From Candidatus Kapaibacterium sp. (lineage in GTDB: Bacteria; Bacteroidota; Ignavibacteria; Kapaibacteriales; UBA2268), in contig JAUQWR010000197.1 in assembly GCA_030835065.1 (NCBI GenBank), positions 1-13,451 on the forward strand: a stretch of DNA of 13,451 bases. The letters run 5' to 3'. A program made the position numbers and the translations under genes. Position 1 is the first letter of the stretch. Each line of letters starts with the position of its first letter. This document shows, one piece after another, positions 3-13,451 of this stretch. The notes beneath the pieces were generated by a model. It did not search any database. It saw nothing but the letters and a program-made list of their open reading frames with translations, and had not been told where the DNA came from.

Positions 3-551
3 TATGACTTAAGAAATGCATGGCGTGCTATAGCAGATTTGAATTTTAAATTTTCACGACTTGAGATGGAAGCAGATTTCGTTCAGGTAGCTCCATCATC
101 AGAAATCGTGGTTGTAATATCTTTTGATGTAAATGTCGGAGTGCATACATTCTTGATGAATTTATGCTTTCCGACATTTGCACTTGAAGAAGTATTGGCA
201 AAACTAAACCGCCAACAAGTAACTACATCGGTAGTAAGACAAAGCCCCAAGAGAATGCGCGAAAATATGCAAGTATTAAATCAGCAGATAGCTACAACAT
301 ATCTGCCGATTATAGCAGAATTGGGCAAAACATCGCTAAACGTCGGCGAAATAATGGAATTGAAAGAAGGCGATGTGATTAAACTTAAGAAAAGAATAAA
401 TCAAGAATTAGAAATAATAATTGCCGGTAAACGAAAATTAGCCGGCAGACCAGGCACTGTCGATGGAAAACGCGCTGTTCGTGTTACTCGTCCGCTTGCC
501 GAAGAAGATTTAGTTGAAGAAGATCTTAGCTATAAAGAAAAGGAATCATAA
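3..551 (+). CDS. fliM: Flagellar motor switch protein FliM, C-terminal part (5' end cut by window edge)
   Basis: FliM is the middle layer of the flagellar C-ring and links CheY-P binding to rotor switching. The frame is already open at base 3 ([13 protein letters not shown]...), so the true start lies outside the window and the internal TTG at 39 is not a start. Visible parts are the end of the middle domain, with FliM-like [19 protein letters not shown] followed by the MNLCFP strand. After it comes the C-terminal SpoA domain ([23 protein letters not shown] ... [15 protein letters not shown]), which packs against FliN. A short acidic/basic tail follows ([16 protein letters not shown]). The N-terminal CheY-binding peptide cannot be checked here. 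The stop lies 2 bases before the fliN start, so the two genes are co-transcribed and probably translationally coupled. The family call is firm from the SpoA sequence and from the order fliM-fliN-fliO. Confidence 0.93.
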
Positions 552-553
552 AT

Positions 554-988
554 ATGACAATGACTCAGGAAGAAATTGATGCCCTGATCTCGGGCGGCGG
601 GCTTAGCGATGATGATTCAAGCCTCGATTCTATAGATTTGGATGATGATTCCGGAACCAATGTTGCTGATGCCAAGTTTTCTGACCTGCAATTTGGCTCC
701 GAAGGCAGTATTTATTCGCCTCTTGATCCAAAATTAGAATTGCTTTATGACTTGCAGCTTCCTGTTTCTATCGAGTTGGGCAGAACTAATATGCTTATTC
801 GCGATATTTTGCGTTTGGGCAGAGGCTCAGTTATCGAATTTGACAAACTTGTGAGCGAGCCTGTCGATGTGCTTATTAATGGTAAGAAAGTAGCCGAAGG
901 CGAAGTAGTTGTTATCGATAAGCATTTCGGTATTCGTATTACTACTCTGGTCGATCCTAGCGATAGGTTGCGCGGCGTCAGGAGATAA
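554..988 (+). CDS. fliN: Flagellar motor switch protein FliN, with an EIDAL N-terminal peptide
   Basis: FliN forms the lower C-ring and helps dock the export apparatus. Residues 65-137 are a textbook FliN SpoA domain ([58 protein letters not shown]) ending in [11 protein letters not shown]. The length of 144 aa matches ordinary FliN and is much shorter than FliY. The odd part is the N-terminus: [16 protein letters not shown] resembles the CheY-P-binding peptide usually found at the start of FliM and FliY (xSQxEIDALL). A low-complexity acidic linker (residues 17-50, Asp/Ser-rich) joins it to the SpoA domain. An AGGAA ribosome-binding site lies at 541-545 inside the end of fliM, 8 bases before the ATG at 554. 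A second ATG at 560 is less well spaced. The GC content is visibly higher than that of the genes downstream. Confidence 0.95.
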
Positions 989-991
989 TTT

Positions 992-1420
992 ATGGATTCC
1001 GGTGTTATAAACGCTTTTTTAATGCTCGCTCTTTGCGTGGCTGTGTTAGGGCTTTTGCTGTTTATTGTCAGACGCTTTACTAACAAAATGAAGCCTAGTG
1101 GCGAGATGGTTGAATTAAAAATTTTAGCTAAGCTCAATTTGCAGCCCAAATCCAATCTGCTTGTGGTTTCCGCTGCTGGAAAAAAATTATTGATTGGTGT
1201 CTCCGAAAAAAATGTCAATTTGATTGCAGATTTGGATTCGGATTCTTTGGAGACTAACTCAAGTAAATCCGAAAAAAATGATTTCGCTGATTTGTTGTCC
1301 AATTTAAATAATTCTTCTGCTAAACCTAATATCAAGCTTAAAGAAAAACTTGAAAAACCTTTGGCTCCTGAAGAATTATCTTTCAAAAGTTTTTTAAAAT
1401 CAACATTTAAATCAAGTTGA
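992..1420 (+). CDS. fliO: Flagellar biosynthetic protein FliO
   Basis: FliO is a small membrane protein that helps assemble the FliP ring of the flagellar type III export gate. This 142-residue protein has one transmembrane segment (about residues 8-26, rich in Leu/Val/Ala) and a basic stop (RRFTNKMK). The short cytoplasmic domain typical of FliO follows: LKILAKLNLQPKSNLLVVSAAGKKLLIGVSEKNV (about 42-75). The last 60 residues are a Ser/Lys/Glu-rich, probably disordered tail. GGAG at 981-984, within the last codons of fliN, is the ribosome-binding site, and only 3 bases separate the two genes. FliO is poorly conserved, so the call rests on topology, the LLV...GKKLLIGV pattern and the position right after fliN. 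The expected fliP does not follow; the next gene is secG. Confidence 0.85.
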   Translation: MDSGVINAFLMLALCVAVLGLLLFIVRRFTNKMKPSGEMVELKILAKLNLQPKSNLLVVSAAGKKLLIGVSEKNVNLIADLDSDSLETNSSKSEKNDFADLLSNLNNSSAKPNIKLKEKLEKPLAPEELSFKSFLKSTFKSS

Positions 1421-1962: not shown

Positions 1963-3021
1963 ATGTTTCTTAATAAACTTAGTTTGAAAAATAAGCTGTT
2001 GACTGTATTATTACCTTTGGGTATTGTTTATTCTGCGGCGGTTGCTTATTACTTTTTTGATACTTCGGATAGTATTATTAGAAATACTACTTTAGAGTCT
2101 GAAAAGAAAAACTCTGCAATTCTTAAAAATTTAATCAAGGAACATCAGAACAAAGCCTTAATCATTGCTAAAATTTTTGCCAGCTCGCCATTTGTTGAGT
2201 CTGCTTATTTAAATACAGACGAAAAAGCTGGTAGCGATTTTTTGATGAATGCTTTAAAACCTCAAATTGATGCTATTTTGAGCGACCAAGATATTAAAGA
2301 CTTTCAAATTCATTATCATAAATATCCTGCTAAAAGCTTTCTTCGTACTTGGACTAACAAGAGATTTGATGATTTGTCAAAATTTAGACCAACTATACTT
2401 GAAGTAGCTATAACCCAAAAGCCTCTGAAAGCCATTGAGTTTGGCGTTGGTGGTTTTGCTGTTAGAGGTATTGCTCCAATTTTTGTAAAACAGCAATATG
2501 TCGGTTCTGTCGAGTTTTTATATGAAATAAAGGATATTATGAGCTTGATGTCAAGCGATAAATCTAATGCCGGGATATTTAATTTAGTGGATGCTTCGGT
2601 TGCAGAAACTGCTTTAAAAAAGGAACAAATTGAAAAGTTTTATAGCAAAAAGATTTTAGATTATTATATTTCCAATCCGAATTCCGATTGGATAAAACCT
2701 GAAGAATTGATTGATGAAGAAACTCAAAAATTGATAAAATCTAATAATGAACTGCAAATTGGCAGCAAAGGTAATATATTTTATTCCTTGAATCCATTGT
2801 TCGATATTAATAATAAGAAAATTGGCTACGTAGCTTTTGTAAAAAATAATGAAGAAATGATAAAATCTGAGACAAATGCATTACTGATTAAAGTAATTAT
2901 CATTGCAGTATTAGTTATGATTTTTATTCTTACTATTATTTTTCTGGTAAATCATTTTATAATTAAACCAATCAGAAAAGCTACAGCCCTAGCCAAAGAG
3001 ATTGCAGAAGGTATATTGTAA
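1963..3021 (+). CDS. Orphan dCache_3-type membrane sensor, truncated inside HAMP (output domain missing)
   Basis: This 352-residue protein has the front half of a chemoreceptor or sensor kinase. It has an N-terminal transmembrane helix (about 11-32), a periplasmic ligand-binding region (about 35-305) and a second helix (about 308-330). The periplasmic part carries the dCache_3 signature: DFQIHYHKYPAKSFLRTW (113-130), FDDLSKFRPTILEV (135-148) and IEFGVGGFAVRGIAPIF (158-174). After helix 2 it enters a normal HAMP (IIKPIRKATALAKEIAEG, 333-350), then reads IL-stop where family members continue EGDLT. No methyl-accepting, kinase or cyclase domain follows in any frame, and the convergent tolC stop begins 17 bases later. 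The start is the ATG at 1963, with a weak GGTG 8 bases upstream. It could be a decayed receptor pseudogene or a functional sensor that acts through a partner. The open and well-conserved sensory domain argues against old decay. Confidence 0.85.
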   Translation: MFLNKLSLKNKLLTVLLPLGIVYSAAVAYYFFDTSDSIIRNTTLESEKKNSAILKNLIKEHQNKALIIAKIFASSPFVESAYLNTDEKAGSDFLMNALKPQIDAILSDQDIKDFQIHYHKYPAKSFLRTWTNKRFDDLSKFRPTILEVAITQKPLKAIEFGVGGFAVRGIAPIFVKQQYVGSVEFLYEIKDIMSLMSSDKSNAGIFNLVDASVAETALKKEQIEKFYSKKILDYYISNPNSDWIKPEELIDEETQKLIKSNNELQIGSKGNIFYSLNPLFDINNKKIGYVAFVKNNEEMIKSETNALLIKVIIIAVLVMIFILTIIFLVNHFIIKPIRKATALAKEIAEGIL

Positions 3022-10177: not shown

Positions 10178-10582
10178 TTACTTTTTGATCTGCTCAATAA
10201 ATTCGCCAAGCTTTTTATCTGCGGTTACCATGTGGATATTAAGCCATTTTTTTAGGAATTGCATTAATGGTGCTGTTGCTATTAAGTGTCCGTCTAAGAA
10301 GTTTGCGTGTAAGTCTTTAATTTGATTTGCAAGCTCGTCATGTTCTTTTTTATGACTTTCGAGGTCTGAGTAACTAAGCTGCTTCATAACTTTTTCTTCG
10401 TAAAGAAAATGGTATATAGCATAATCTTTGAGCTCTGTAAATATTTTTGTTATCTCATCCGGATCTTTTCCTTCAGCCATAGAGTTGAATATTTCATTTA
10501 TTAATACTGCCAACTTTTTATGCTGTGAGTCCAATTCTGCATCATTAGTCGAAAATGCTTCGCTCCAATTTATAAAACTCAT
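10178..10582 (-). CDS. Bacteriohemerythrin (non-haem di-iron oxygen-binding protein)
   Basis: This single-domain hemerythrin of 134 residues binds O2 at a di-iron site. Such proteins serve in oxygen sensing, storage or delivery. All seven expected iron ligands are present at canonical spacing: His21 (LDSQHKKL), His58 and Glu62 (YHFLYEE), His77 and His81 (SHKKEH), His117 and Asp122 (NIHMVTAD). The opening NWSEAFSTND is also typical. AGGAG lies 7 bases before the ATG. The gene stands alone between two intergenic gaps (98 and 175 bases), downstream of the CheA-like gene on the same strand. A link between oxygen and the chemotaxis-like pair is therefore possible but only positional. Confidence 0.96.
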   Translation of the reverse strand: MSFINWSEAFSTNDAELDSQHKKLAVLINEIFNSMAEGKDPDEITKIFTELKDYAIYHFLYEEKVMKQLSYSDLESHKKEHDELANQIKDLHANFLDGHLIATAPLMQFLKKWLNIHMVTADKKLGEFIEQIKK

Positions 10583-10757: not shown

Positions 10758-12836
10758 TTAGGACTGATTCTTATTATAGTCTCTTATGATTTTGGAGATG
10801 TCTAAAACATGTGCTAACTTGTCGTTGAAAGTACCAGAATATATAATGAAAGGATTTCTCTTCATAAATGCTTGTTTGGGTTTTGAGCTCAATTCTGCTT
10901 CTGTCATAAAACTTTCGAAGCATATTGCATATTGTTTGTCTTCGCGCTTAATTATTGCAGCCTGGCTTAATGGTTTGTTGGTTTCTTTTTTGCTGAATTG
11001 CTCGTTTGGTATAATTGTATAAATATCTTTATAATCTGATATATTGTTTTTAACATCAATTATACTATCTATTTCTGATATGTCGATTGCAAAATATTCA
11101 GAAGCTAAGTTGAAAATTAATACATGTTGTATAGAATATTTATCAGCTAATGTTAGAATTATCTTGCATTTTTGATTATGTTTCGACTCAAATTCCAGTC
11201 CAATACCCGATTTTCTAATATTTTCGATATGTTCGGCATATTGCTCTGCCAGAATTGCTGCGTTTTTGGCATAGCCATCATCACTTAAAATAATCTTTAA
11301 CTGACCAGAGTTTTGAACTGCAGAAATTTTAAGTTTGGCATAAGGCTTTTTGCCAATATTAATTCGTTCGTCTTCTGATTCAATTTGATTAATAATTACA
11401 TTTCTCAACAGTTCAGGGAGCAATTTTTCGATTTTAGCAGCAGACTCGGCACCAATCCTTACGTCAGCACCAATAATCTCGAGTTTTACTTTTCGGCTGG
11501 AATATTCTGCAATTTCTAAAGCTAAATCCTCGATTCCTGCAGTTATATCTGCAAAAGAATATGAACGAAGATTATATAACATTCTATGGCTGCGCTTGAG
11601 TGAGTCTGATGATTTTTTTATTGACGCATTTTGCTCAATGCTTATCTCATCAATTTCACTTATCAGGTTTAGTATTTTTTCAGATGAGTTCTTCAGAATT
11701 TCAATTGCTTTAGAGTCTGTTTCAGCTAAATTGAATATAGCTGTGTTTGCCATAAATTGAAGCTCTCTAAGTCCGGATTTGATTTTGCTCAGTTTTAGTG
11801 AATTTAATTTGTGGCTGTTATTGACTGAATAAAGTTGATTTATATTATCAATCAATTCGTTAAAGCTGAATAGATTTTCAGGTGGCTTGATTTTAGAACT
11901 TTTGTGTTCAGGCTTTATCAAATTGTGTGTTGCAAAAGATATATCAATGCCGGAAACAGCATCATCAATAAATTCTTTCATCGAATCTATATAAGTATCA
12001 ATTTCTAGAGATTGCTCACTTAATTTGTCTAATAAAGTCTGATAATTTTCTAAAGGAATTGATTTAAGGAAATGTATTGCTTGTCTTAACTTACTAATTT
12101 GTTCATCGCTAATACTTATAATTCCTTCGGAGTAAGCCACAAAAAGTTCTTGCATTGCCCTTCCGAGTTCGAAAACTTTTTGGTAACCGGCATTATTAGC
12201 AGTTGCTGCAATGGATTTGCTTTCTTCAATAATTATCTGTACGTCGGAGCTATTAATTGCTTTTTCGGATAATTTATCCTCAATGATAGCAGATGAAGAA
12301 CTAAGCAGAAGCTTGAATTTTTCTGTGTCATTTTGCACTTTTTCTTCGGGCTTGCTGGGCTCGGTTGCTTGTGCCGCTTTTTGAGCCTTTATTTCTTCTG
12401 CTTTCTTTTTTGGAGAATATTTTTTTATTCTTGATGGAACAGTAATTTTCTTAAGTGATTTAATGTATTCATTTATAAGCACTTCTTCGTTTTGAAACAT
12501 TTCATCAATTTCATCTGCTTCGAATTCGAGCATAACAATGAAAATATCGTTTGCCCTTAAAATAATATCAATATCTTTTGTGTTTAGCTCTATTTGTTCA
12601 GAGCAGGCAAGTTCTAATATCTTGTATTCTTCATCGAGCACTCTTAGCGCATTTTTAAGCTTTGCCTCTTCTGCAGCAGATTTCAATTTTTGAATTGATT
12701 CTTTGGCTTTTTCGAGAAGTTCAATATTGAGGAATCTCTCATAATCGATAAGGCATGTTTCGATCAATCCGGATTCGGGACTAATCAAATCCATGAAAGA
12801 AATAATATTGGTAATATTATTCTGTTTAGTACTCAT
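10758..12836 (-). CDS. Degenerate CheA-like protein (pseudo-histidine kinase with C-terminal CheW-like domain)
   Basis: The 692-residue protein has the architecture of a CheA/ChpA-type kinase with its active residues replaced. An Hpt-like helix bundle (about 30-125) reads SIQKLKSAA where active domains read AHTLKGSA, so the phospho-His is Gln49. A second Hpt-like region (about 173-260) has KSIAATANNAG for HSIKGGAGTFG, so His becomes Lys207. After a Lys/Ala/Glu/Pro linker (about 138-170) and a helical middle part comes a P4-like region. Its N-box keeps Asn479 but has INQ for DHG (LLRNVIINQIE). Its G1 box is DDGYA for DDGRG, and the F- and G2-box stretch is shortened to a remnant (SGIGLEFES). 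The C-terminal 570-690 is a P5/CheW-like domain (IQHVLIFNLASEYFAIDISEIDSII). There is no receiver domain. The start overlaps cheW by 11 bases. It is probably a scaffold or signalling adaptor; the function is unknown. Confidence 0.85.
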   Translation of the reverse strand: MSTKQNNITNIISFMDLISPESGLIETCLIDYERFLNIELLEKAKESIQKLKSAAEEAKLKNALRVLDEEYKILELACSEQIELNTKDIDIILRANDIFIVMLEFEADEIDEMFQNEEVLINEYIKSLKKITVPSRIKKYSPKKKAEEIKAQKAAQATEPSKPEEKVQNDTEKFKLLLSSSSAIIEDKLSEKAINSSDVQIIIEESKSIAATANNAGYQKVFELGRAMQELFVAYSEGIISISDEQISKLRQAIHFLKSIPLENYQTLLDKLSEQSLEIDTYIDSMKEFIDDAVSGIDISFATHNLIKPEHKSSKIKPPENLFSFNELIDNINQLYSVNNSHKLNSLKLSKIKSGLRELQFMANTAIFNLAETDSKAIEILKNSSEKILNLISEIDEISIEQNASIKKSSDSLKRSHRMLYNLRSYSFADITAGIEDLALEIAEYSSRKVKLEIIGADVRIGAESAAKIEKLLPELLRNVIINQIESEDERINIGKKPYAKLKISAVQNSGQLKIILSDDGYAKNAAILAEQYAEHIENIRKSGIGLEFESKHNQKCKIILTLADKYSIQHVLIFNLASEYFAIDISEIDSIIDVKNNISDYKDIYTIIPNEQFSKKETNKPLSQAAIIKREDKQYAICFESFMTEAELSSKPKQAFMKRNPFIIYSGTFNDKLAHVLDISKIIRDYNKNQS

Positions 12837-13392: not shown

Positions 13393-13451
13393 TTTTTACT
13401 TCTCGATTAATGAAATACAATTTTGAATATTTTTGATTATAGAATTATAAC

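Follow-up and report, generated by a model that had tools for sequence, protein, structure and literature searches.

A CheA pseudokinase probably kept as the scaffold of a reduced receptor module in one clade of Kapaibacteriales

Why would a bacterium keep an intact gene for a CheA-like protein that has neither phospho-accepting histidines nor a complete ATP site? The question is raised by a 13,451-nucleotide stretch of Candidatus Kapaibacterium sp. (GTDB lineage Bacteroidota; Ignavibacteria; Kapaibacteriales; UBA2268), comprising positions 1 to 13,451 of contig JAUQWR010000197.1 in assembly GCA_030835065.1, which we refer to as the window. An initial annotation, made from the letters of the window, described a CheA-like protein that had lost both phospho-histidines and its ATP-binding boxes, and proposed a retained non-enzymatic role for it. 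We analysed this protein, here called pseudo-CheA, its orthologues and its gene neighbourhood.

The annotated reading frame was confirmed as intact (Table 1) and is hardly recognised by domain libraries. A structural model built on 16 sequences predicts the domain order Hpt-Hpt-P3-P4-P5 of CheA; its quality is moderate (pLDDT 71.4, pTM 0.35), so we trust the domain folds and not their arrangement. The two Hpt-like domains that had been recognised from their helical pattern appear in the model as bundles, with helices within residues 2-129 and 164-294, and every modelled part, these bundles included, matches its CheA counterpart in the PDB. Within this moderate-confidence model, the P3, P4 and P5 folds match 3ja6, 1i59 and 4jpb, in agreement with the earlier assignment of the C-terminal CheW-like domain to CheA P5. 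The comparison with CheA structures that had been proposed as a check of the annotation thus returned CheA folds, and a predicted structure in which the ATP lid is absent.

Table 1. Positions in the window of pseudo-CheA, its predicted domains and the upstream genes.
Feature	Position	Strand	Details	Basis
Pseudo-CheA	10758..12836	-	692 codons + stop	Frame list; CheA folds by model and PDB matches
Hpt1-like domain, residues 1-138	12423..12836	-	Without His; Gln49 codon 12690-12692	Alignment, model
Hpt2-like domain, residues 164-294	11955..12347	-	Lys207 codon 12216-12218	Alignment, model
P3-like long-helix pair, residues 322-424	11565..11873	-		Model, PDB match
P4-like domain, residues 425-566	11139..11564	-		Alignment, model, PDB match
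Asn479 codon, within P4-like domain	11400-11402	-		
DDGYA, within P4-like domain	11268-11282	-		
F-box/lid/G2 gap, between residues 532 and 533	about 11240/11241	-		Alignment, model
P5 CheW-like domain, residues 567-692	10761..11138	-		Pfam, alignment, model, PDB match
CheW, 188 aa	12826..13392	-	Overlaps pseudo-CheA start by 11 nt	E 1.8e-10 to PF01584
Possible final 17 codons of an upstream gene	13396..13449	-	Candidate; contig end	Read by eye

Catalytic sites were compared across 15 protein-database clusters of orthologues, the window's included, several of which stem from the carrier genomes described below. Frames are full-length in all 15 (692-711 residues). In the alignment, no cluster has a phospho-accepting His at either Hpt site: the Hpt1 residue is N in 11 clusters, L in three and Q in one, and the Hpt2 residue is N in 11 and K in four. 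Gln49 and Lys207 do therefore occupy the phospho-His positions in the window, as annotated, and the proposed orthologue alignment established that both the His loss and the deletion of the F-box/ATP lid/G2 stretch (missing in 15/15) are conserved. The remaining parts of the ATP site are more mixed. The N-box Asn is present in four clusters and gone in 11; D and G of the DHG motif are substituted in all 15, and its His in 14; the DxG of the G1 box is retained in every cluster, and the final Gly of DxGxG in 14. From these counts, A523 (of DDGYA) and Q49 are private to the window's genome and N479 marks its lineage only. The initial annotation was accordingly right about the loss of DHG and about the presence of N479 and DDGYA in the window, but Asn479 is kept only in the window's lineage and the missing last Gly does not extend to the other clusters. 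Its phrase 'loss in every catalytic part' holds for the histidines and the F/lid/G2 region and is slightly overstated for an ATP site that keeps DxG throughout. Of the features of a functional CheA histidine kinase, pseudo-CheA has the P3-P4-P5 folds and lacks the Hpt His, an intact set of N, G1, F and G2 boxes, and the lid.

A profile search of 54 genomes of the family found orthologues in six; three genera (g1, g2 and g20) were sampled by exactly these six genomes, so that every sampled member carries the gene. In an RpoB tree, the carriers G000, G001, G019, G034 and G066 form one clade (support 100), which indicates that catalysis was probably lost a single time. The suspicion that this might be a local pseudogene fails on the same data, since the orthologues span three genera and none of the 15 clusters has full catalytic residues.

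Which kinases are its closest intact kin? With a four-row profile against the 54 genomes, the closest matches outside the pseudo-CheA group were CheA-REC proteins, ahead of ordinary CheAs (frames of 782-938 aa in eight genomes, E 1e-38 to 3e-17). A P3-P5 tree sets pseudo-CheAs and operon CheA-RECs apart from other CheAs (100), and the pseudo-CheAs, whose branch is long, fall nearest to the CheA-REC of G021 (90). By these comparisons, the nearest intact relatives of pseudo-CheA are CheA-REC kinases that the same family encodes in Wsp-like operons; 'Wsp-like' here refers to gene order alone. The hybrids (L032-L036, L110-L112) share the P3-P4-P5 order with pseudo-CheA, and most also share the tandem Hpt; they differ in keeping the Hpt1 His, N-box Asn, DDGxG, lid and SGRG and in carrying a REC domain (Pfam on L032). 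All eight aligned CheA-type proteins have the Hpt1 His, N-box Asn, DDGxG and SGRG. Among five aligned operon CheA-RECs, Hpt2 has its His in three, Asn in G017 and is absent as a domain in G024. One full-length CheA-REC (L036:7310-10054) has Asn for His in Hpt2 with Hpt1 and the kinase boxes intact, so loss of the Hpt2 His occurs also in an otherwise intact relative.

The operon at L032 (L032:5860-18920) encodes a GAF-GGDEF protein, an MCP with Cache_3-Cache_2, a second MCP, CheW, CheR-TPR, another CheW, CheA-REC, CheB and REC-SpoIIE. Frame orders are comparable at L035, L036, L110, L111 and L112, where the regulator and first MCP of L035 were checked by Pfam. This resembles the order of Pseudomonas Wsp (MCP, CheW, CheR, CheW, CheA-REC, CheB, response regulator), as given in passages of an account of Wsp in beta- and gammaproteobacteria (PMC8552884). 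The output differs: REC-GGDEF in Pseudomonas Wsp, as given there, and REC-SpoIIE at the end of the family's operons (Pfam, two operons), with most parts not found in the carriers. The separate GAF-GGDEF gene of L032 lies at the opposite end of its operon. In G021 (L033:4558-8159, G021:C230), CheA-REC stands beside a single double-CheW gene, relatives of CheB and REC-SpoIIE lie at the edge of another contig, and the frame at L033:3061 is a deoxyhypusine synthase (Pfam).

Searches of the six carriers, some of which are incomplete genomes (78-99%), for the other operon parts were negative. The second CheW was not found in any of the six, with weak CheW matches in four (E 2e-5 to 9e-5; controls E 3e-31 or better). 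Nor was the operon CheB, for which long CheB matches reached at most 34% identity against 50-57% for controls and anything above 34% was a short receiver match only. REC-SpoIIE was likewise not found; five of the six have a paralogue at 26-30% identity (controls 61-70%), and G001 gave no match at E 1e-15. CheA-REC was not found by direct search in four of the six or by profile search in all of them, with positive controls matched, and none of the 54 family genomes has pseudo-CheA and CheA-REC together (profile search). No carrier yielded the full Wsp set; the second CheW, operon CheB and REC-SpoIIE were found in none of the six.

What remains beside pseudo-CheA is a short set of chemosensory genes. 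Four species have an MCP-like gene, CheW, pseudo-CheA and then a convergent class II aldolase frame (aldolase domain confirmed by Pfam on L106); G001 has the MCP-like gene, pseudo-CheA and the aldolase frame in this order, a module without CheW. In the protein database, the longest contig of three MCP-like clusters is equal in length to that of a pseudo-CheA cluster. These gene orders give a three-gene set in one genus, two of the three genes in a second, and CheW with pseudo-CheA in the window. The window's contig runs on for 59 bases above the start of CheW, and the possible 17-codon tail there sits where the MCP-like gene lies in the other genera. In the window's genome, which is fragmented into 867 contigs, neither a single-protein search nor a search with 72 bases of the contig end yielded a usable match to an MCP-like gene, and a family profile that recovered the gene in the five other carriers did not find it there either. 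Downstream, the window differs from the g20 species and G001, which have the aldolase-type frame behind pseudo-CheA. At L106:9996-10580 and L107:9818-10402 that convergent gene slightly overlaps the end of pseudo-CheA, whereas the window has a bacteriohemerythrin gene on the same strand (10178-10582, minus) about 175 bases downstream, in the place of the convergent aldolase-type frame of the other five carriers. Elsewhere in the window, positions 1963-3021 (plus) encode a 352-aa dCache_3 sensor protein that ends just past a membrane-helix and HAMP-like stretch; it has no signalling domain, is followed by a gene on the opposite strand and resembles a truncated receptor. Genes for FliM (partial), FliN and FliO at 39-1420 (plus) show that the window's genome encodes flagellar parts besides its ordinary CheAs.

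The PF00015 signalling domain was not detected in either of two MCP-like proteins, while operon MCP controls matched. With the MCP-like profile, the best four outside matches were the first MCPs of intact operons (E 3.9e-10 to 1.0e-9); the fifth and sixth were not in operons, and one of these spanned the Cache part alone. Aligned with operon MCPs, the arms of the MCP-like proteins are nearly symmetrically shortened, by 13 and 12 columns, and the tip by 2. Judged by profile and alignment, the MCP-like protein is a degenerate Cache receptor and kin to the operon MCPs. The adaptor has a less uniform affinity: module CheWs of g20 have a first-operon CheW as their top match (E 7e-11), and the window's CheW has ordinary CheWs (E 1e-9), not operon CheWs.

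We consider it likely that pseudo-CheA is a pseudokinase of the CheA type, retained to scaffold a small receptor complex that signals by binding and not by phosphate. In one clade, a Wsp-like operon would have shed both Hpt histidines, the ATP lid and G2, the REC domain, CheB, the second CheW and REC-SpoIIE, and would have retained the body of CheA together with a Cache receptor and, in most cases, a CheW. Pseudo-CheA would still dimerise and bind receptor and CheW, and the signal would pass through binding and shape instead of phosphate.

The alternative that fares best next to this scaffold is that pseudo-CheA acts as a decoy or spacer: it would enter the cell's ordinary chemotaxis arrays and dilute the active CheA there. 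Ordinary CheAs are indeed encoded by G000, G001, G019 and G034, and the P5 and CheW folds are retained. The contact residues suggest separate partners instead. All eight MCP-like rows have replaced the Glu of the SIEAE stretch (by Phe in seven, by Ser in one), and the Arg of N(L/Y/F)RG is absent from all five module CheWs and present in ordinary and first-operon CheWs; we take this Arg and Glu to lie at the receptor-CheW contact in E. coli. The argument is a weak one, because four second-operon CheWs also lack the Arg. On balance we regard dilution of ordinary arrays as unlikely.

Could pseudo-CheA still be an enzyme, binding nucleotide through what is left of its site and being phosphorylated on another residue? 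Some nucleotide binding is conceivable because DxG is retained in all 15 clusters, and 11 of them have a His in the first helix of Hpt1 that might be thought to accept phosphate. The window's lineage has Glu there, and the position is not that of the phospho-site; we rejected this His as a substitute, and the alignment has no His common to all 15 clusters. With the F-box/lid/G2 stretch gone from every cluster and the N-box Asn from 11, an unusual enzyme is very unlikely.

A division of labour has a precedent in Cereibacter (Rhodobacter) sphaeroides, where the partly degenerate CheA3 still has one Hpt that works and is partnered by CheA4, as described in parts of a CheA survey (PMC10782961). 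By analogy, another kinase or Hpt protein would supply the activity and pseudo-CheA would take part in a phosphorelay. As far as those parts describe it, CheA3 is like pseudo-CheA in having a degenerate kinase domain that lacks helices and ATP contacts, Hpt-like domains without His, and family-wide retention (PMC10782961). The two part company at the substrate: CheA3 keeps one phosphorylated, His-bearing Hpt and is served by the kinase CheA4, whereas in all 15 clusters pseudo-CheA lacks the His at both sites, and a partner of this sort was not seen. At L029, L030, L031, L108 and L109, inspection by eye, with Pfam on some frames, showed no gene for a kinase or Hpt protein beside the module. Pseudo-CheA thus lacks the pairing of one intact Hpt with an operon-encoded, kinase-bearing CheA that defines a CheA3-type split, and we give a phosphorelay role marginally less credence still than residual enzyme activity.

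Selection was examined in four species of one genus, sister to the window's (G019, G034, G065 and G066), which also supplied the dN/dS check proposed for the frame. Pairwise dN/dS was 0.065-0.121 for pseudo-CheA (six pairs), 0.057-0.179 for the module CheW (five of six pairs) and 0.113-0.155 for the MCP-like gene; purifying selection acts on all three module genes in this genus. Among the neighbours, values were 0.022-0.038 for PfkB, 0.026-0.052 for a 442-aa protein, 0.046-0.072 for a 1448-aa protein and 0.048-0.146 for the aldolase, so pseudo-CheA exceeds several of them (0.022-0.072 for three of the four). Within the protein, every region lies far under 1, with pooled dN/dS lowest in Hpt2 (0.035; 95% 0.019-0.058), followed by Hpt1 (0.071), P3 (0.086), P5 (0.107), P4 (0.110) and the linkers (0.184 and 0.199). 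Over long times, pseudo-CheA is fast-evolving: P3-P5 of G000 and G019 are separated by 2.96 substitutions per site, and the corresponding values of two ordinary CheAs are 0.17 and 0.31. This speed and the many vanished motifs are what a decaying gene on its way to loss would display; full-length frames in all 15 clusters, presence in 6/6 genomes and constraint on every region and on all three genes make decay the least probable reading. We reject a pseudogene or an assembly artefact on the intact frames, the distribution and dN/dS. The non-enzymatic role first proposed is supported by the lack of a catalytic orthologue in 15 clusters, by retention in 6/6 genomes and by purifying selection in the sister genus.

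Constraint on the Hpt2 site differs between lineages. Across the 11 clusters that do not belong to the window's lineage, no 15-residue segment of the protein is better conserved than the Hpt2 site, which carries Asn in place of His and has a mean pairwise identity of 98%. In the window's lineage (P0001 vs P0004), Hpt2 is the most variable folded domain (17/128 residues differ), and P5 (5/126) and P4 (9/142) are the most conserved. That lineage, with Lys at the site, does not keep the Asn motif and seems to have taken another route. A tentative extension of the scaffold reading is that receptor, adaptor and pseudo-CheA signal by shape without phosphotransfer of their own, with the Asn-for-His pseudo-Hpt as an unphosphorylatable dock. 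More doubtful, and drawn by analogy, is the suggestion that in lineages of the g2/g20 type the Asn-bearing Hpt2 might dock a receiver or other partner in the fashion of DivL and DivK~P. Caulobacter DivL, as portrayed in passages of PMC4211667, is without kinase and phosphatase activity and still binds DivK~P. It would be like pseudo-CheA, for which this is predicted, in having a histidine-kinase fold without activity that is repurposed for binding (PMC4211667). The two differ in that DivL is, by the same passages, a membrane-type histidine kinase with a known partner, DivK~P (PMC4211667), and pseudo-CheA is of CheA type. In Pseudomonas ChpA, some Hpt domains lack the His and have a role that excerpts of PMC10782961 give as unknown. 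ChpA shares His-less Hpt folds with pseudo-CheA, but by those excerpts it keeps other, His-bearing Hpts and is a kinase (PMC10782961).

A survey of 13,673 CheA sequences reports the HATPase_c kinase domain in every CheA homologue of its set (PMC10782961); the way in which those CheAs were collected may have excluded cases like pseudo-CheA. Our search of the open-access literature, by title and summary, found no CheA lacking both the His and the ATP site. Pseudo-CheA is novel in that a CheA has lost features of its substrate and of its ATP site and yet a reduced receptor module is retained. New in this analysis are its ancestry in CheA-REC operons, the finding that other genera have a degenerate MCP-like partner, and the Hpt2 Asn in 11 of 15 clusters. 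Such proteins escape domain searches, and one member carries the database name 'chemotaxis protein CheW'. In three genera pseudo-CheA has a receptor gene, an adaptor gene or both as neighbours, and this arrangement suggests a sensing complex that operates with no phosphate relay of the usual kind. If that complex works, chemosensory scaffolds can persist without a kinase.
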